Source: Geothrix sp. (GTDB lineage Bacteria; Acidobacteriota; Holophagae; Holophagales; Holophagaceae). Taken from it: a DNA stretch of 64,000 nucleotides. Made by a program: the position numbers and the translations under genes. Each line of letters begins with the position of its first letter. The stretch's first letter is position 1. Location of the stretch: NCBI RefSeq assembly GCF_020622065.1, contig NZ_JAHRYQ010000002.1, positions 1,051,905 through 1,115,904 on the forward strand, read 5' to 3'. Positions 46,844-52,612 of this stretch are shown piece after piece. The notes under the pieces are model-generated. The model ran no database searches and had not been told where the DNA came from. It was given only the letters and a program-made list of their open reading frames with translations.

Positions 46844-46893
46844 GCCCAAGCCTTGCGTTACACTCCCCTCTGCCGGTCTACCGGGGTGTACGC

Positions 46894-47610
46894 TTGAAGA
46901 TCTACCCGACTTTGAACCTCCAGCACGGCCGTGTGGTCCCCACCACGGGGGACGGAGATCCGTGCGCCGAGGCGCCCCTGGAGCTCGCAGCCCGGCTCCT
47001 CGACGAGGGCACCACCCGCATGGCCCTCGTGGATGTGGACGCGGCCATGGGCAAGGGCAACAACCGCGACCTCATCGCCCAGATCCTCCAGCGCTGCCAC
47101 GCCCGGGACCGCAAGGTCTGCATCCAGGTGGCCGGTGGCATCCGCAGCTCCGACCAGGCCCAGTTCTTCATCGACCAGGGCGCGGCCTGGCTGGTGGCCG
47201 GCACCATCCTCCACAAGTCCCCCATGGTGGCTGAGCAGCTGATGGCGCGGTTCCAACCCTTCCTCACCGCGGCCATCGACGCCCGGGGCGGCAAGGTCCA
47301 CCGCTCGGGTTGGGTGGATGCTTCGACCCTCAGTGCCCAGGACCTGGCTCTCCGGGCCAAGGCCTACGGCTTCCGACGGCTGCTGTTCGTGGACATTCCC
47401 GAGGATCCCGGCTCGGATCCCGATTTCGAGACGGCGCAGCTGCTGGCCTCCTCGACGGGCCTGCCCGTGGTCATGGGCGGCAGCATCACCTCCCCGCGCC
47501 ACCTCGCCGCGGTCCATGCCCACCAGGGGCTCAAGGGCGCTCTGGTGGACGCCCTGCTCTTCCGGGAAGATCCGGAACTCCTGGCCCTCCTCCAAGCCGC
47601 CTGCGCCTGA
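46894..47610 (+). CDS. HisA-like TIM-barrel protein with altered catalytic site
   Basis: A 238-residue barrel of the HisA/HisF family (ALVDVDAAMGKGNN, VCIQVAGGIRS, AAIDARGGKVHRSGW). HisA isomerises ProFAR using two aspartates. The first, in PALD near residue 8, is Asn here (YPTLNLQHG), while the second (AAIDAR) remains. The loop usually reading DISRDGT is DIPEDPGSD. The start is TTG at 46894 with a GGGGTG-like Shine-Dalgarno. No other his genes are near. It may be a paralogue with another substrate or a non-catalytic protein. A true HisA is expected elsewhere. Confidence 0.78.
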   Translation: MKIYPTLNLQHGRVVPTTGDGDPCAEAPLELAARLLDEGTTRMALVDVDAAMGKGNNRDLIAQILQRCHARDRKVCIQVAGGIRSSDQAQFFIDQGAAWLVAGTILHKSPMVAEQLMARFQPFLTAAIDARGGKVHRSGWVDASTLSAQDLALRAKAYGFRRLLFVDIPEDPGSDPDFETAQLLASSTGLPVVMGGSITSPRHLAAVHAHQGLKGALVDALLFREDPELLALLQAACA

Positions 47611-47621
47611 ACGGAGGGATC

Positions 47622-49406
47622 GTGTCGGAAGCGGAAGGCGCGTTCCTCGCCAGCCTCGCAGAATCCGAACGGATCCACTTCCGCCATCTGGCCCTGGTGC
47701 GGCCCCAGCTGCCCACGGACAGCCAGGTGCACATGCTGGAGGGGCTCGCCCGCTCTCTGGCCTCGCCGCGCCTGCTGACCCTCATGGCCCGCACACCCCA
47801 CTGGCTGGCCCACTGGCCCATCCTCCTGGGCCTGGCCGAGAATGAGGCCACCCCCGAAGCCATCCGCCGCGACCTGGAGATGGTGGTTTCCCTTTTCGAC
47901 CAGATGCGCGAGATGGACCAGGCCCCCGCCGCCGAGAAAGATGAGCGCTCGGAGGCCGTGAAGACGCTCTACTCGCAGCTGAGCCCCCCCCTCAAGCCCG
48001 TGGCCAAGCTCCTGGCCAAACAGCTGGCCAAGACCGTCTCCGCCACCGGGAACACCCAGGAGCTGCCTCCCCTTCCCCCGGAACACCCGGACTGGGATGC
48101 CCTCACGGCCCCGCCCGCCGCCCTGCCCCCCCAGGCGTCAGGCCGTGGCCTGCACAAGGAGGACCGCCTGGCCCGGGCCAAGCAGACAGCCCAGCCGGAC
48201 GAGCTGCTGGGCTTCCTCGTGGATCCCGATGCCGACCTGCGCCTGGCGGCCCTCCAGAATCCGCTGGTCTCCGAGGATCTGGTGTGCCGGGCCCTGGCCC
48301 AGAGCGCCGATCCCGGGTTCTTCGAGGAGGTCTACGCCGAGGCCCGTTGGTATTTCCGGGAACCCGTGCGGGACAGCCTGCAGGAGGCCCCGGGCTGCCC
48401 GCCGGAGCTCTCCCGGCGCCTGGCCCTCTCGGGACACCTGGTGGCGGCCCTGGAGCACGGGGCCCGCAACCGGGCCGCCCTCCGCCGCATCGTGAGCTAC
48501 TTCACCCAGCTGGAGGAGAGTGAGTACCAGTTCATCACCTATTGGGCCAAGCGGCAGTCGCCCCAGCTGCTCCGGGTGGTGAAGTATTTCTACGACCGCC
48601 TGCAGCGCCAGCAGTCCGGGCTCTCCTCGGCCCTGCCGGAGCGCGGCGAGGAGGGCCGCTGGGCCACCATGGAGGAGCGGGTCTTCCTGGCCACCCAGGC
48701 CACCCAGGAGGACCAGATCAGCCAGATCCTCAAGGATCCGGATCCCCAGGTGTTCCGCCTGGCCCTGGAAAACCCGGCCCTCACGCCCCGCCTGCTGGCC
48801 TCCACCCTGCCCGCGTTCGACCAGGCCCGGGCTGAGCTCGTGGCCGCGCACCCGGCCTGGTCCGAGGAGCCGCTGGTGGCCGAGGCCCTGATCCACCAGC
48901 CCCACCTGACGGAAGCCACGGCCCTGCGGCTGCTGGCGCATCTCCCCGGGCTGAAGCCCGCCCTCGAGATCCTGCGCGACCCGCGGCTCCTTCATCTCGA
49001 AGTCAAGCGGCGGGCCCTGGAATCCCTGCGGAACCTCTACCTTTCCCTCGACATCCCCGACCGCATCGCGGCGCTTCGCACCTCCGGCGGCGAACTCATG
49101 CGCCATCTGCCCCAGGAGGTGCTCCAGGACGAGGAGACGCTCCGCCGGATGGTGTCCGACCGCCAGCTCGACCCGGGCGTCCTCCTCCGGCTCGCCCGCA
49201 ACAAGCTGACCCCGCGCGCCGTGCTGGAGCAGATCGCGGGCCATCCCGTGCTCATGGCCCACGCCGCCATCATGTCGGAGCTGCTGCTCAACCCGAAGAC
49301 CCCCCGGGAGGCCTCCGTCCGCATCTGGGGTCTCCTCTCCGAGGCGGAACAGCAGCAGCTGCTCCGCAGCCCCCATCTTCCCGCCGCCCTTCGGACCCTC
49401 GGGTAA
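47622..49406 (+). CDS. HEAT-like repeat protein
   Basis: A 594-residue soluble, entirely helical protein. Repeats such as ELLGFLVDPDADLRLAALQNPLVSEDLVCRALAQ and QILKDPDPQVFRLALENPALTPRLLASTL resemble HEAT or leucine-rich-variant repeats, which form protein-binding solenoids. No catalytic motif is visible. The GTG at 47622 is preceded by GGAGGG and lies 11 bases after the HisA-like stop. The frame upstream overlaps that gene and is excluded. A scaffold role is an inference. Confidence 0.72.
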   Translation: MSEAEGAFLASLAESERIHFRHLALVRPQLPTDSQVHMLEGLARSLASPRLLTLMARTPHWLAHWPILLGLAENEATPEAIRRDLEMVVSLFDQMREMDQAPAAEKDERSEAVKTLYSQLSPPLKPVAKLLAKQLAKTVSATGNTQELPPLPPEHPDWDALTAPPAALPPQASGRGLHKEDRLARAKQTAQPDELLGFLVDPDADLRLAALQNPLVSEDLVCRALAQSADPGFFEEVYAEARWYFREPVRDSLQEAPGCPPELSRRLALSGHLVAALEHGARNRAALRRIVSYFTQLEESEYQFITYWAKRQSPQLLRVVKYFYDRLQRQQSGLSSALPERGEEGRWATMEERVFLATQATQEDQISQILKDPDPQVFRLALENPALTPRLLASTLPAFDQARAELVAAHPAWSEEPLVAEALIHQPHLTEATALRLLAHLPGLKPALEILRDPRLLHLEVKRRALESLRNLYLSLDIPDRIAALRTSGGELMRHLPQEVLQDEETLRRMVSDRQLDPGVLLRLARNKLTPRAVLEQIAGHPVLMAHAAIMSELLLNPKTPREASVRIWGLLSEAEQQQLLRSPHLPAALRTLG

Positions 49407-49448
49407 ACGCTCCCAGTGCGATCCCGTAGCCCAAGTCCAGGAGCCCCC

Positions 49449-50459
49449 ATGCGACGCCCCGCCGCTTTTCTGATCCCCGCCGCGGTGGCTCTGATCTGCC
49501 TTCCCTTCGCCACCTCCTGCCGGCCCAAGCCCCGGGTCCCGGGCTGGGTGCAGGCCGCGCCGGCCGACAGCCTCGCGGCCTTCTCCGGCGAGGCGGGCTG
49601 GGTGCTGACCCACAAGGATGTCCAGTCCCTGATCTCCCGGGATCCCATGGTGGAGCGGGCCCTGGACCTCTTCCTCCAGAAGGCCCGAATCAATCCCCGC
49701 AACGAAACCGGGCGGGTGACCTTCCATGTCATCGGCATGCCGCAAAAGGGCGAGGACAACCTCCAGAAGGGCCTGGAGCATGTCCTCATCCAGCTCAACC
49801 AGTTCAAGGACCCCACCGCCCTGGTCTCGGCCCTGGCCGAGTCCTTCCCTCAGGAGGGTAGCCTGCGCCTGCAGGGCCGGGACTGGCCCCTCCATGTGAT
49901 CCTCGACATCGAGGCCCAGGGGACGAAGGCCCACATCCGCGCCGCCAGCGACGAGCAGGGCCAGGTCTGGATCGGCTCCCTCGAGGCCCTCAACCGCATG
50001 GCCACGCGCGGCAGCCTGGCCGCCCAGCCCGATGCGGCCCTCGCCGCCGAGTGGATCAGCGCCCGCGCACCCTTCCAGGGCTACCTCCAGCCGGAGACGC
50101 TGCTGGGCGGGTTGCGCCAGAACCTGGAAAGCACCTTCATCAAGGATCTGCCCCAGGGTGTCAACGCCCTCTTCTGGAGCATCACGCCAGCCACCGAGAA
50201 GGACCAGCCCATCCGCTTCGAGCTGGCCCTGGCCGGCACCCCCGAGGGCATCAACCAGGTCACGCCCTGGCTCCAGCGCCTGGTCGCCGCCGCCAATGCG
50301 GTCCAGGCCACGCCGGGCTCCACTCCCGAGCTTCTCCAGGAGAAGCGCCGGGTGGGCCTGCGCTGCACCCTTACGCCCGACCAGCTCAAGCTGGTGATGG
50401 AAAAGCTCGGCCAGCCCGGCTTCTCCTTCCGCCTCCCGACCGGAGGCCCCAAGGCATGA
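49449..50459 (+). CDS. Putative lipoprotein of unknown function
   Basis: A 336-residue exported protein. The signal ends in a lipobox-like ATSC (Cys24), so it is probably lipid-anchored. The mature part is mixed alpha/beta (GWVLTHKDVQSLISRDPMVERALDLF, FELALAGTPEGINQVTPWLQRLVAAANAVQ) and resembles no family that I can name. AGGAG precedes the ATG. It lies ten bases upstream of the ECF sigma gene, so it may be part of the same envelope-stress circuit. Confidence 0.7.
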   Translation: MRRPAAFLIPAAVALICLPFATSCRPKPRVPGWVQAAPADSLAAFSGEAGWVLTHKDVQSLISRDPMVERALDLFLQKARINPRNETGRVTFHVIGMPQKGEDNLQKGLEHVLIQLNQFKDPTALVSALAESFPQEGSLRLQGRDWPLHVILDIEAQGTKAHIRAASDEQGQVWIGSLEALNRMATRGSLAAQPDAALAAEWISARAPFQGYLQPETLLGGLRQNLESTFIKDLPQGVNALFWSITPATEKDQPIRFELALAGTPEGINQVTPWLQRLVAAANAVQATPGSTPELLQEKRRVGLRCTLTPDQLKLVMEKLGQPGFSFRLPTGGPKA

Positions 50460-50469
50460 GCGTGGCGGC

Positions 50470-51066
50470 ATGAGCGCGGTCCTGCCCCTGTCTCCGGGTC
50501 CCGGCGGCGAACCCGCCGGGCCGGAGGCGGAGTCCCCCGAATACTGGATGGCCCAGCTCAAGGCCGGACGCGAGGAGGCCCTGGCCCACCTCATGGCCCG
50601 CTTCGAGCGGCCGCTCTGCGCCTTTCTGCACCGCCGCCTCCAGGGGGAGGCCGGGGTCGTCCAGGAGTTGGCCCAGGAGGTTTTCCTCAAATGCCTCCAG
50701 CATTGCCAACGGTTTGAGGACGGTCGTCCGGTGGCCGCCTGGCTTTTTACGCTGGCGGCTAATGCGGCGACGGACCATCTGCGTAGACGAGGGCGAGAGG
50801 TATCCCCTCCCGAGACCTTTGACGCACCGGACCCCCACCAGGCTTCACCCTGGGAATCCGTGGACCAAAGCCGACGGCTCCAGGCCCTTCGCGGGGCTCT
50901 GGACGGACTCACCCCCCGCCAGCGGGCCATGGTTCTCGCCTACTACGTGCATGAACATCCGGTGAAGCGGATCGCCCTGGATCTGGGCTGCGCCGAAGGC
51001 ACCGTCAAAGCCACGCTCTTCCAAAGCCTCCAGAAGCTCCGCAAGACCCTCGGACCCCAGCCATGA
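50470..51066 (+). CDS. ECF-type RNA polymerase sigma factor
   Basis: A 198-residue group 4 sigma factor. Region 2 (about 25-100) has ALAHLMARFERPLCAFLHRRL and QELAQEVFLKCLQ, with a promoter-melting helix RPVAAWLFTLAANAATDHLRRR. Region 4 (about 135-195) has LTPRQRAMVLAYYVHEHPVKRIALDLGCAEGTVKATLFQSLQKLRK. It overlaps the next gene by ATGA, as sigma/anti-sigma pairs usually do. There is no obvious Shine-Dalgarno, so it is likely coupled to the lipoprotein gene. The target promoters are unknown. Confidence 0.92.
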   Translation: MSAVLPLSPGPGGEPAGPEAESPEYWMAQLKAGREEALAHLMARFERPLCAFLHRRLQGEAGVVQELAQEVFLKCLQHCQRFEDGRPVAAWLFTLAANAATDHLRRRGREVSPPETFDAPDPHQASPWESVDQSRRLQALRGALDGLTPRQRAMVLAYYVHEHPVKRIALDLGCAEGTVKATLFQSLQKLRKTLGPQP

Positions 51067-51755
51067 CCCCCGCCCCCGACCCCAACCGCCCCGACCCCCG
51101 CCTCCAAGACGAGGCCCGGTGCTTCGAGATCCTCGACCAGCCCGAGCTCTGGCCCGAGGACCCCGCGCGGCAGGCCGAGCTGGCGGACCTGCTGGAACTC
51201 CACCTGGCCCTCCGGAGCCACGGACCCGCCCTGGCGGCGGACCTGGCCCCCGCTCCGCGCACCCGCTGGACCGGCTCCTGGACCCTGGCCGCCGCCGCCG
51301 TCCTTCTGGTGGCCCTGATCCCCGCCGTCGCCACCCTCCAGCGCACCCGGAGCCTGCAGGCTTTGGCCCGCGACACGGCGCGCCTCGAGCAGTTGGCCCA
51401 GAAGCGCACCCAGGATCGTGCCTGGATCGCTTTCTTCCAACAGAGCACCACCCTGCTCCAGGACTTTGAGCAGAATCCAACCCTGTGCAAGAAGGGCGAG
51501 GAAGACCGTCGCCAGGAGCGCGAGATGGCCGTGGCCCTCCTGGAAGCCAGCCATCAGCTCGCCGCCCAGGGCGCCCCCCTCAAGGAAGCCGAGGCCATCC
51601 GCGCCACCCTGCACACCTGGCTCTCCGAAGTGGCCTTCGAGGACAACTGCCTCAGCGTCGAGCGCGCCAAAGAACTCCGGCAGTGGGCGGCCGCCCACAA
51701 CCTGGAGACCCAGGCCGAACGCATGGAACGCCGCCTGAGGGGAGAGGACGCATGA
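51063..51755 (+). CDS. Single-pass membrane protein, candidate anti-sigma factor
   Basis: A 230-residue protein coupled to the ECF gene by ATGA. The N-terminal 65 residues are cytoplasmic and acidic, followed by one transmembrane helix (about 72-92, WTLAAAAVLLVALIPAVATLQ) and a coiled-coil-rich periplasmic part. This topology and position fit an anti-sigma factor. A zinc-binding HxxxCxxC motif is absent, so it would be a non-ZAS type. Two later cysteines (TLCKK and DNCLS) might form a disulfide. Confidence 0.72.
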   Translation: MTPAPDPNRPDPRLQDEARCFEILDQPELWPEDPARQAELADLLELHLALRSHGPALAADLAPAPRTRWTGSWTLAAAAVLLVALIPAVATLQRTRSLQALARDTARLEQLAQKRTQDRAWIAFFQQSTTLLQDFEQNPTLCKKGEEDRRQEREMAVALLEASHQLAAQGAPLKEAEAIRATLHTWLSEVAFEDNCLSVERAKELRQWAAAHNLETQAERMERRLRGEDA

Positions 51756-52564
51756 CCCTGTCCCTCCTGTTGGCCCTGCCGGCCCTGGTGGCTCCGGCGG
51801 CGCCGGAACCCCTCGCCATGGTGGCGATGGAGAGCCCCGCCGAGGCCCTCTTCCGCGCGGGCCGGGACCTCCGTTACGCCCAGCGCTGGTATGAAGCCTC
51901 CCTGGTCTACCGCGCGCTGATCCGCGACTTCCCCACCTCCTCCCGCGCCGCCGACGCCCGCTACTGGCTGGCTTCCAGCCTGGAGCAGGACCAGCGGTGG
52001 GACGAGGCGGCCGAGGCCTACACCGAATTCCTGGCCAAGCACGCCGACCAGCGCCTCCTGGGCAAGGAGGCCCGGCTGAACCGCGTGCGCTGCTGGGGCA
52101 TCCGCCAATGGGACAGCCCGGCCGCCAGCACAGGCCTGGCCAACGCCCTGTCCGACGACCGCGAAGAAGTCCGTATCGCCGCGGCCCTCCAGCTCGCCAA
52201 GCGCCGGGACACCCGTGCCCTGCCGGTGCTCCAGGCCGGCCTGCGGGTGGACGCCTCGTCCGAAGCCTGCCGCCTGGCCCTCCTCGCCATGGGCGTCCAA
52301 CCCCAGGCCGCCGGGCCCGCCCAAGGACGCTTCCTCGTGGTGCGGGTGAAGGAGCGCGCCAAGGCCGAAGCCCTCACTGTGCGCCTGGCCCTGGGCCTCG
52401 CCCGGGCCGTGGGCGGTTACCTCTCGGACGAGCAGATGCGCCAGGCGAAGAAGAAGGGCGTGGACCTGGAGCGCCTCATGGACCAGGCCCTCAATGCCCC
52501 GAAGGGCACCGAGCTCTTCAGCCTCGATGACGGCAAGAGCACCGTGACGGTGACGGTCGAATAG
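51752..52564 (+). CDS. Exported TPR protein (YbgF/CpoB-like)
   Basis: A 270-residue protein with a signal peptide and TPR repeats (ALFRAGRDLRYAQRWYEASLVYRALIRDFPTSSRAADARYWLASSLEQ, WDEAAEAYTEFL). A HEAT-like part (DREEVRIAAALQLAKRRDTRAL) follows. The first part resembles the YbgF/CpoB TPR domain of the Tol-Pal system, but the trimerising coiled coil is missing. Its ATG overlaps the previous stop (ATGA), making a sigma, membrane protein and TPR protein trio. Confidence 0.75.
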   Translation: MTLSLLLALPALVAPAAPEPLAMVAMESPAEALFRAGRDLRYAQRWYEASLVYRALIRDFPTSSRAADARYWLASSLEQDQRWDEAAEAYTEFLAKHADQRLLGKEARLNRVRCWGIRQWDSPAASTGLANALSDDREEVRIAAALQLAKRRDTRALPVLQAGLRVDASSEACRLALLAMGVQPQAAGPAQGRFLVVRVKERAKAEALTVRLALGLARAVGGYLSDEQMRQAKKKGVDLERLMDQALNAPKGTELFSLDDGKSTVTVTVE

Positions 52565-52612
52565 CCCGCGCCGCGGCCGGGCCGGACAGACCGGCTAAGC
52601 TGGTCTCTGACC

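Follow-up and report, generated by a model that had tools for sequence, protein, structure and literature searches.

Five adjacent genes of Geothrix sp., a bacterium of soils and sediments (contig NZ_JAHRYQ010000002.1, assembly GCF_020622065.1), raise the question of whether an ECF sigma factor and the products of its neighbors form one envelope-stress circuit and where such a circuit would begin and end. An earlier note on this DNA had proposed a five-gene cassette composed of a HEAT scaffold, a lipoprotein, an ECF sigma factor, a non-zinc membrane anti-sigma candidate, and an exported TPR protein. The present analysis indicates that this idea was largely right but that the borders of the cassette were wrong, since it contains four genes rather than five, and we consider it quite likely that the region 49404-52564 forms an operon in which an ECF sigma factor responds to envelope stress and regulates its own expression. 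All coordinates are positions in the window, i.e. the whole 64,000-nt stretch analyzed, and the features are as follows.

46859-46864, + strand: TACACT, before the HisA-like gene
47622-49406, + strand: upstream gene ('HEAT'), 594 aa, judged to lie outside the operon
49404-49428, + strand: predicted ECF promoter TAAAC-N16-CGTA (-35 at 49404-49408, -10 at 49425-49428), overlapping the upstream stop codon
49449-50459, + strand: LIPO, lipoprotein, 336 aa, first gene in the operon
50470-51066, + strand: SIG, ECF sigma factor, 198 aa
51063-51755, + strand: ASIG, candidate anti-sigma factor predicted to span the membrane once and lacking the zinc motif, 230 aa
51752-52564, + strand: TPR, exported TPR and HEAT protein, 270 aa
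52325-52561, + strand: C-terminal domain of TPR, also present in a SHOCT-like protein
52596-52601, + strand: TAAGCT, before msbA

Gene Order and Borders of the Operon

The five open reading frames were all present at the positions proposed and on the + strand. The ATGA junctions ascribed to them held for two gene pairs, SIG/ASIG (at 51063) and ASIG/TPR (at 51752), which overlap by four bases, but LIPO and SIG are separated here by a 10-base gap; at this last junction 19 of the 20 loci from the same genus show a 4-base overlap, and in the remaining one, L069, the frame of the sigma gene is broken. The junctions within the operon are retained across the genus. The SIG and ASIG genes overlapped in 20/20 same-genus loci and in 18/20 further loci of the family; L125 and L126 showed a gap with the start as called, and an earlier start in L126 restores the overlap. 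Of the 22 other matches, 20 made up the same-genus set; the two that were excluded lie on contigs only 4.4 and 6.0 kb long. All five genes were complete and in the same order in each of the 20 loci, a gene order far beyond chance, and thus the lack of conservation in close relatives that had been set beforehand as the result that would count against the cassette was not observed.

Nevertheless, the conserved block reaches beyond the five genes on both sides, where RNase III, HisA-like, MsbA, and QueA genes are found, and therefore adjacency by itself does not define a five-gene cassette. The label of 'HEAT protein' given to the product of 47622-49406 was not borne out, because comparison with Pfam (E<=10) and NCBIfam (E<=1) yielded no family. 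That this protein is the scaffold of the circuit, as proposed, agrees with the location of its gene on the same strand and 17-116 bases from the cassette, which it adjoins in 20/20 same-genus loci and in 15/20 further family loci. However, the conserved ECF promoter begins at its stop codon, so that the four remaining genes lie behind that promoter and the 'HEAT' gene runs with the neighboring block, whose HisA-like, MsbA, and QueA genes are linked to the cassette about equally well. Of the five further loci without an adjoining 'HEAT' gene, four are truncated by a contig end or begin at one; the fifth, the 15-kb locus L126 from a distant genus, has the four genes and the promoter in a different neighborhood without the block and without the 'HEAT' gene. 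In addition, a 'HEAT' profile that found its two positive controls had no match next to the cassette in L125 and L126 or in 40 loci of the phylum, many of them with short flanks. We therefore regard the scaffold role as very improbable; the functional unit consists of LIPO, SIG, ASIG, and TPR, and the 'HEAT' gene is part of the neighboring block.

Two conserved hexamers lie outside this unit. TACACT, which is conserved in a 21-row upstream alignment, is a possible housekeeping -10 element for the HisA-like and 'HEAT' genes, and TAAGCT, invariant in a 21-row alignment, is a candidate for a separate msbA promoter that would mark the end of the operon. A scan of sigma-70 and terminator consensus sequences gave nothing above shuffled sequences, with neither hexamer among the matches, and the window contains no Rfam family or tRNA gene by the respective scans.

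The Predicted Promoter of the Operon

A site of the form TAA[ACG]C-N16/17-CGTA precedes LIPO in 20/20 same-genus loci and in 17/20 further family loci, compared with 0.6% of random 110-nt windows, a comparison that is generous because the pattern was fixed after inspecting the counted loci. In the upstream alignment both halves of the promoter are conserved while the spacer varies, and TAAAC (TAACC in L065) is retained even if the upstream gene of the locus has an earlier stop codon. No promoter site was found within the 74 nt of upstream sequence of L123. Elsewhere in the phylum, AACC-N16-CGT is located at <=100 nt from the first gene of the operon in 8/9 loci versus 0.8% of random windows, a figure to which the same caution about inspected loci applies. 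A review of ECF sigma factors gives an AAC -35/CGT -10 promoter together with autoregulation as their hallmark, and the predicted promoter of the operon matches this AAC/CGT form (PMC8103513).

SIG and Its Candidate Anti-sigma Factor

The assignment of SIG as an ECF sigma factor was confirmed by matches to Sigma70_r2 (1.6e-12) and Sigma70_r4_2 (4.6e-13), with which NCBIfam agrees, and all 22 solved chains that SIG matched in the PDB were sigma factors (best, SigL 6dv9, 2.5e-16). Group IV (ECF) members are recognized by having only sigma2 and sigma4, joined by a linker of <50 residues (PMC8103513); SIG has sigma2 at residues 42-109 and sigma4 at residues 138-190, with a 28-residue linker. Across 19 loci from other genera SIG is 72-82% identical, versus 35-47% for LIPO and 34-58% for ASIG.

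ASIG probably comprises a cytosolic part (residues ~1-70), a membrane segment (~74-93), and a periplasmic helical bundle containing C142 and C196. It gave no Pfam match above threshold, either with the whole protein (RskA_C only, E 2.1) or with residues 1-74, and its profile matched no solved structure. Its profile did match that of the zinc-type anti-sigma factors encoded at the equivalent position in other members of the phylum (prob 88, E 3e-6), over 92 columns of the periplasmic part and not over the cytosolic inhibitor part, whereas the control comparisons gave prob 0.1 for ASIG with TPR and prob 0.7 for LIPO with the anti-sigma profile. The phylum anti-sigma profile itself found anti-sigma-W RsiW as its best PDB match, weakly (E 0.094) and over the RsiW N terminus. 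The zinc motif HxxxCxxC is present in 24/25 phylum anti-sigma factors and in 0/27 ASIG proteins of the family of the window; a later cysteine pair in the periplasmic part is kept in 27/27 of the latter and is common to the phylum zinc-type proteins. To judge from these sequences, the family has lost HxxxCxxC from its anti-sigma factor. The earlier proposal of a non-zinc membrane anti-sigma candidate stands as regards relationship and absence of zinc motif, and ASIG would act as the inhibitor of SIG.

In the AlphaFold2 model, ASIG has helices at residues 12-24 and 34-61 ahead of the membrane helix, at low confidence, the pLDDT of the cytosolic part being 45-71 by blocks. A fold search with this model returned only generic helical bundles (best Z 9.2, a designed protein, in a range uninformative for bundles); no anti-sigma structure was among the matches, an absence that carries no information because the N terminus was barely covered by that search. 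The low-confidence cytosolic model, together with the lack of a recognized anti-sigma domain and of the zinc motif, would also suit an activator located in the membrane or a protein that shares the operon but is otherwise unrelated. Such a role appears quite unlikely, since slot, topology, cysteine pair, and profile match are all common with anti-sigma factors carrying HxxxCxxC, and SIG and ASIG occur together in all 20 same-genus, all 20 further family, and all 25 uncut phylum loci.

Distribution across the Phylum

Outside the family, sigma, anti-sigma, and TPR/HEAT genes were found in that order in 25/25 uncut phylum loci, 16 of which had not been used in building the anti-sigma profile. The earlier view of sigma factor, membrane protein, and TPR protein as one unit is in agreement with this conservation well beyond close relatives. 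The TPR/HEAT profile matched 77 phylum genomes, and 32 were dropped as weak, mostly TPR-only matches. The full-length TPR profile matched the phylum-wide TPR/HEAT family (prob 99.9, E 2.6e-33), and TPR together with SIG and ASIG belongs, by gene order and C-terminal domain, to the phylum-wide sigma/anti-sigma/TPR-HEAT cassette as defined in this analysis.

The search of the order genomes with ASIG gave 63 matches, from which G012 was dropped at 17 bits, and ASIG was not found in 15 of the 77 genomes of the order. These absences combine poor assemblies and possible true loss: three are reduced genomes of 0.9-1.2 Mb, the contig of G010 ends inside the block, and G012 lacks both the cassette and its HisA-like neighbor yet keeps the promoter before its DUF4097 gene, which makes an assembly gap likely.

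The Exported Partners and the Sensor Question

LIPO was confirmed as a lipoprotein by its lipid-attachment cysteine C24, invariant in 25/25 rows. It matched no Pfam family, and its sequence search of the PDB gave nothing credible (best E 0.013, a sensor kinase fragment). Its AlphaFold2 model (pLDDT 82) found TP0453 as the best PDB match (Z 9.1, rmsd 5.3, 207 residues aligned). Homology to the lipoprotein that occupies the same slot in L169 was rejected (hhalign prob 0.4).

The TPR call for 51752-52564 proved correct (TPR_6, 5.4e-8), and a HEAT_2 match was also obtained (9.2e-7). The C-terminal domain of this protein also occurs in a SHOCT-like protein (prob 92.9, E 3.6e-7) and gave nothing credible against PDB sequences (best E 0.018, ribosomal protein L22). 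TPR as a whole was rejected as a SHOCT-like/LiaX-type protein: its N terminus is TPR/HEAT instead of a SHOCT-like helix pair, and the C-terminal domain alone is common.

We propose that in unstressed cells SIG would be held at the inner membrane by the single-pass, zinc-less ASIG. The helical bundle of ASIG in the periplasm, in which a single conserved pair of cysteines probably serves as a staple, would take in the signal. LIPO and the exported TPR would act outside the inner membrane as the sensor or relay partners of ASIG. Upon damage, ASIG would release SIG, which would then drive TAAAC-N16-CGTA promoters, amplifying its own operon and producing a small regulon. The nature of the signal, the outer part that senses it, and the contacts between the proteins are inferred in this scheme.

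A different role for the two exported proteins, which we find doubtful but take seriously, is that they are outputs of the circuit, i.e. envelope repair or lipid-binding proteins, with ASIG as the sole sensor. Both are encoded inside the autoregulated operon, as typical targets are, and other predicted targets are exported as well, one of them with TPRs. LIPO is fast-evolving across genera, and its profile had no match in 40 phylum loci, of which many have a short upstream flank, so that it seems dispensable for the core switch. On the other hand, the presence of TPR beside sigma and anti-sigma genes in every uncut phylum locus would be expected of a dedicated partner more than of a target that can be exchanged, and the LIPO model bears a weak, partial likeness to RseB/MucB (Z up to 4.9, ~86 residues), which are anti-sigma partners. 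We lean tentatively towards LIPO and TPR as partners of ASIG.

The Predicted Regulon

The motif TAAAC-N16-CGTA occurs at eight sites in the Geothrix genome, seven of them 20-52 nt before a start with ribosome-site-like sequence and a protein with a hydrophobic N terminus; the same position test was passed by 1.2% (window) or 0.8% (loci) of random positions and by 0/14 reversed-motif controls. Over 15 genomes, 20 of 23 strict sites passed, and 12/14 still passed when the nine LIPO sites were removed. The DUF4097 'toastrack' gene keeps its site in 9/9 close orthologues, although the nine are not independent because the spacer is partly conserved as well. By count the motif is not over-represented, with 8 sites versus 22 reversed-motif sites in its own genome (23 versus 14 over the 15 genomes), and the case for the regulon rests on site position and not on count. 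The sole wrong spacing tried, N12, gave 0 sites. In a genome rich in GC, an AT-rich motif whose first letters are TAA tends to fall at the ends of genes.

Besides the DUF4097 toastrack protein, the regulon is predicted to include an Rce1-like membrane protease, a transglutaminase-TPR protein, a DUF5694 protein, a 248-aa exported protein, and a weakly GldB-like exported protein. This predicted regulon is envelope-directed, in line with the envelope-stress circuit that had been suggested.

The scattered sites could instead be read by another ECF sigma factor or be chance intergenic occurrences, only the promoter of the operon being real. Their count does not exceed the reversed control, AAC/CGT is common to many ECF promoters (PMC8103513), and other ECF sigma factors are encoded in the same genome that could read them. 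We consider this improbable in view of the position of 7/8 sites at starts of proteins with a hydrophobic N terminus, the conservation of the DUF4097 site, and the fact that no other ECF factor is among the seven genes after the sites; we infer that SIG, and not another ECF factor, reads them.

Relationship to Known Systems

The ECF sigma/anti-sigma principle is already known, and what is new here is a variant, a probably autoregulated ECF envelope-stress system. Systems with a class I anti-sigma factor (ASDI), such as SigW-RsiW and ChrR, likewise have a sigma factor with only sigma2 and sigma4, an AAC/CGT promoter like the one predicted here, and an adjacent anti-sigma factor, single-pass as predicted for ASIG, and the phylum relatives of ASIG carry HxxxCxxC. 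Unlike them, ASIG has a periplasmic part that belongs to no Pfam family and forms, in the model, a bundle of helices containing a conserved pair of cysteines; the TPR/HEAT partner encoded downstream is constant, and in the family of the window a lipoprotein gene precedes the sigma gene. Loss of zinc is not exotic, since HxxxCxxC is present in ~48% of membrane-bound ASDIs, about half being without it, with zinc and non-zinc members mixed within groups (PMC7406223).

The arrangement of AlgU-MucA-MucB is comparable to that of RpoE-RseA-RseB. In the latter system of E. coli, as proposed for Geothrix, sigma factor, anti-sigma factor, and periplasmic modulator are co-encoded (PMC8103513). LIPO and RseB/MucB show partial fold likeness, with no sequence relation found, and LIPO differs in being a lipoprotein encoded by the first gene of the operon and in fitting TP0453 better (Z 9.1 versus 4.9). 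To our knowledge, the TPR/HEAT protein has no counterpart in RpoE-RseA-RseB. The likeness to TP0453, an outer-membrane lipoprotein of Treponema pallidum, is one of fold only: four of its crystal forms gave the best LIPO matches (Z 8.3-9.1 over 207-211 residues), but with 8-10% identity, rmsd of 5.3-6.0, and no match by sequence profile.

YvlB is a SHOCT-like toastrack protein. Its gene belongs to the core sigma-W regulon of Bacillus (PMC3498285). The SHOCT-like/toastrack stress systems, including the sigma-W-controlled yvlABCD, resemble the Geothrix system in that the C-terminal domain of TPR is found in a SHOCT-like protein and the DUF4097 gene has the promoter of the operon. They differ in that the common domain is located in Geothrix on an exported TPR/HEAT protein beside the sigma factor; the Geothrix toastrack protein is encoded elsewhere in the genome with an exported-type start, whereas a published prediction places the toastrack inside the cell. 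The Geothrix system also connects ECF signaling with the toastrack/SHOCT-like domains that belong to the Lia and Psp responses to stress.

Acidobacteriota are common in soils and difficult to culture (PMC3174227), and among the papers listed in our literature searches there was no worked-out envelope-stress sigma system for this phylum. A tentative joint reading, which is rather unlikely, is that Acidobacteriota run the LiaX/YvlB-toastrack membrane alarm in an ECF form peculiar to them. The domain found beside toastrack systems in SHOCT-like proteins would have moved onto an exported TPR/HEAT protein, which now constantly accompanies an ECF anti-sigma factor as its periplasmic partner, with the toastrack as regulon output. 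Zinc would then have been lost from the anti-sigma factor in the class of the window, and in Holophagaceae the operon would have gained a new first gene, for an RseB-like lipoprotein of the outer membrane, so that the signal would pass through four parts on its way from the outer membrane to RNA polymerase. The proposed promoter, the short target list, and the presence of the loci in cultured strains (e.g. Geothrix fermentans DSM 14018) make the predictions directly testable.

Gene order and borders of the sigma factor operon

The five open reading frames proposed in the earlier note as a possible envelope-stress cassette were confirmed at their positions in this 3.35-Mb genome, and the assignment of an ECF sigma factor and a TPR protein stood, since Pfam and NCBIfam recognise both, with a HEAT_2 stretch inside the TPR protein. 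The first gene had been called a HEAT protein, but it gave nothing above threshold in either collection, and neither did LIPO or the membrane protein ASIG.

47622-49406, + strand, 'HEAT', gene upstream of LIPO
49404-49428, predicted ECF promoter TAAAC-N16-CGTA, ahead of LIPO
49449-50459, + strand, LIPO, lipoprotein
50470-51066, + strand, SIG, ECF sigma factor
51063-51755, + strand, ASIG, putative single-pass anti-sigma factor
51752-52564, + strand, TPR, exported TPR/HEAT protein

Same-genus loci were compared from 20 of the 22 other matched genomes. In all 20 the five genes keep one order and lie within a block of STK, RNase III, HisA-like, 'HEAT', LIPO, SIG, ASIG, TPR, MsbA and QueA genes whose order is likewise constant, three loci being cut at the left by contig ends. 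In a second set of 20 loci (19 of 22 other-genus matches plus one same-genus locus, L127), 'HEAT' to TPR were complete and in order in 15; four of the remainder were cut or started near a contig end, and the fifth, L126, carried LIPO, SIG, ASIG and TPR only. The SIG/ASIG and ASIG/TPR junctions are 4-base overlaps in 20/20 same-genus loci and the LIPO/SIG junction in 19/20, and SIG and ASIG overlap in 18/20 second-set loci. At the LIPO/SIG junction of the window (50456-50472), the ATGA that forms the overlap in relatives is still present but opens a 5-codon stub, and the SIG start is shifted 14 bases downstream relative to it. In L069 a frame change separates the first quarter of the sigma gene from the rest of it, reflecting either a true loss or an assembly error.

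The TPR protein's relatives among named genomes came from Geothrix and other Holophagaceae, which marks this genome as a Geothrix-type member of the Acidobacteriota. Two contigs titled Bacillota and Deltaproteobacteria (L244 and L246) bear a Holophagaceae-type TPR gene (56-58% identity), and these titles are probably wrong. With an ASIG profile and a cut-off of E 0.01, 63 of the order's 77 genomes matched, and 62 of these were counted as real. Outside the family, 16 genomes of the class were searched and gave no match at E 0.1, although one of these, G026, has a relative in the right place. The HisA/HisF-like gene (46894-47610), a His_biosynth family match with 99 of 229 bits, well under the HisA equivalog cut-off, is kept beside RNase III across the family.

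The inclusion of 'HEAT' in the cassette was not upheld. In L126, the genes on either side of LIPO-SIG-ASIG-TPR are unrelated ones, 15 kb of sequence gave no match to 'HEAT', HisA-like or MsbA, and a 'HEAT' profile that found its two positive controls detected nothing in L126, L125 or 40 phylum loci. The predicted promoter conserved between 'HEAT' and LIPO puts the border of the unit at the same place, between these two genes.

A predicted ECF promoter ahead of LIPO

Alignment of the upstream regions revealed that TAAAC and CGTA are kept between 'HEAT' and LIPO while the intervening 16 bases vary. The Bacillus sigma-W consensus is very similar. The TAA of the site is the 'HEAT' stop codon in the window; in loci where 'HEAT' stops earlier (TGA or TAG), TAAAC is still present (TAACC in L065). 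Counted as TAA[ACG]C-N16/17-CGTA at most 110 bases from the LIPO start, the site was present in 20/20 same-genus and 17/20 second-set loci, including L125 (GC 52%) and L126 (GC 44%), versus 244 of 40,000 random windows of the same loci, a generous yardstick because the pattern was settled after inspecting these loci. The misses were L112, where 12 bases of contig remained, L123, where 74 bases remained and contained no site, and L109 (by eye, a TAAGT variant). A review (PMC8103513) gives the AAC/CGT form as the ECF promoter hallmark, with autoregulation and a co-transcribed anti-sigma factor, and the window's site has that same form.

Predicted regulon

The pattern TAAVC-N16-CGTA occurs at eight sites in the whole genome, one of them (by eye) in 23S rRNA. 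The other seven end 20-52 bases ahead of a start codon meeting a position test (a start with a ribosome-site-like sequence, at least 130 open codons and a hydrophobic stretch at the beginning), which random positions pass at 1.2% (window) or 0.8% (loci) and reversed-motif sites in 0/14 cases. A spacer of 12 instead of 16 bases, the sole wrong spacing tried, gave no site. The raw count is not enriched (8 sites versus 22 for the reversed pattern in this genome); the evidence for a regulon is site position, not site number.

Predicted regulon of SIG
LIPO, site-bearing, own operon
DUF4097 toastrack protein
Rce1-like membrane protease
transglutaminase-TPR protein
DUF5694 protein
248-aa exported protein
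protein with a weak GldB match, below threshold

We take the Rce1-like protease to be reminiscent of PrsW of the sigma-W system, as a lead only. A stricter pattern gave 23 sites in 15 genomes, of which 20 passed the position test (12/14 once nine LIPO sites were removed); by eye, three other genomes have such a site at a DUF4097-like gene, three at the transglutaminase-TPR gene and two at a relative of the exported protein. Among 31 genomes searched with the DUF4097 protein, 18 had a match and nine a close orthologue (at least 73% identity, one partial); the site, with its 16-base spacer, is retained in all nine orthologues, although the spacer sequence is itself partly conserved. In G012 (L282), 95% complete, the cassette is absent, yet the ECF promoter is present at the DUF4097 gene, reflecting either an assembly gap or another sigma factor reading the site.

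A phylum-wide core and the probable origin of the anti-sigma factor

TPR ends in a 79-residue domain that matches nothing in Pfam; a profile of this domain found relatives across the phylum, some of them full TPR/HEAT proteins. One relative, in L177, has an N-terminal SHOCT-like domain (PF22746, 1.3e-8; C-terminal domain profile match probability 92.9), and its gene directly follows one reading, by eye, like DUF2089. A profile of eight full TPR/HEAT relatives was searched against 199 phylum genomes. Outside the family it matched 28 genomes, all at E 1.3e-35 or better, and within the family 17, at E 1e-26 or better; 32 genomes with weaker matches were left out. Of the resulting 30 loci, the two from the family were set aside; three of the other 28 are cut by contig ends, and sigma, anti-sigma and TPR/HEAT genes stand in order in 25/25 uncut loci, nine from genomes that supplied the anti-sigma profile and 16 independent. 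AACC-N16-CGT, a pattern chosen after inspecting phylum upstream regions, lies within 100 bases upstream in 8/9 phylum loci versus 0.8% of random windows, and in the ninth it spans the assumed start.

In 17 of the 28 loci (L310, L312, L314-L320, L323, L326-L328, L330-L333) the TPR/HEAT gene is followed by a second small gene whose product is that same C-terminal domain on its own; the examples read completely (L172, L174, L175) have exported-protein-like starts. By eye, a LemA-like gene lies downstream of the cassette in L168, L176 and L178, and a DUF2207/TPM-like gene also in L168 and L176.

The phylum anti-sigma factors carry an HxxxCxxC zinc motif in 24/25 open frames, the exception being G026, of the window's class, versus 0/27 in the window's family, where ASIG keeps one histidine, H47, in a conserved LExH stretch. 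The periplasmic parts of the two groups matched by profile (probability 88, E 3e-6, 92 columns; controls 0.1 and 0.7). A periplasmic cysteine pair is present in 27/27 family proteins, 54-56 residues apart, and in 8/9 phylum proteins, 53-58 apart, the ninth lacking it. Given the profile match, the common cysteine pair and HxxxCxxC in the phylum relatives, the preferred reading of ASIG is a zinc-type anti-sigma factor after zinc loss. Membrane-bound anti-sigma factors without the motif are common (PMC7406223).

The lipoprotein and a proposed mechanism

The predicted LIPO model is good (pLDDT 82). Its top four structural matches are TP0453 crystal forms (Z 8.3-9.1), followed, clearly lower, by LpqN (Z 5.7) and then by partial RseB/MucB matches (Z at most 4.9), which makes a lipid-binding or outer-membrane role plausible.

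The components of the system are of known kinds, and the most likely working would be a classical ECF switch, in which SIG is held by ASIG until a periplasmic or outer-membrane signal, relayed by LIPO and TPR, releases it; freed SIG would then amplify its own operon and make envelope proteins. The gene combination was not found in the literature searched, and an existing ECF group may already include this sigma factor.

In the class sibling G026 (L169 2957-3931), a lipoprotein-like gene occupies the same first slot before the sigma gene; it has no profile similarity to LIPO and is a possible functional replacement. In G148 (L172 1448-1870, reverse strand reading), the first-gene slot before the sigma gene is taken by a lipoprotein-like protein that carries the C-terminal domain alone.
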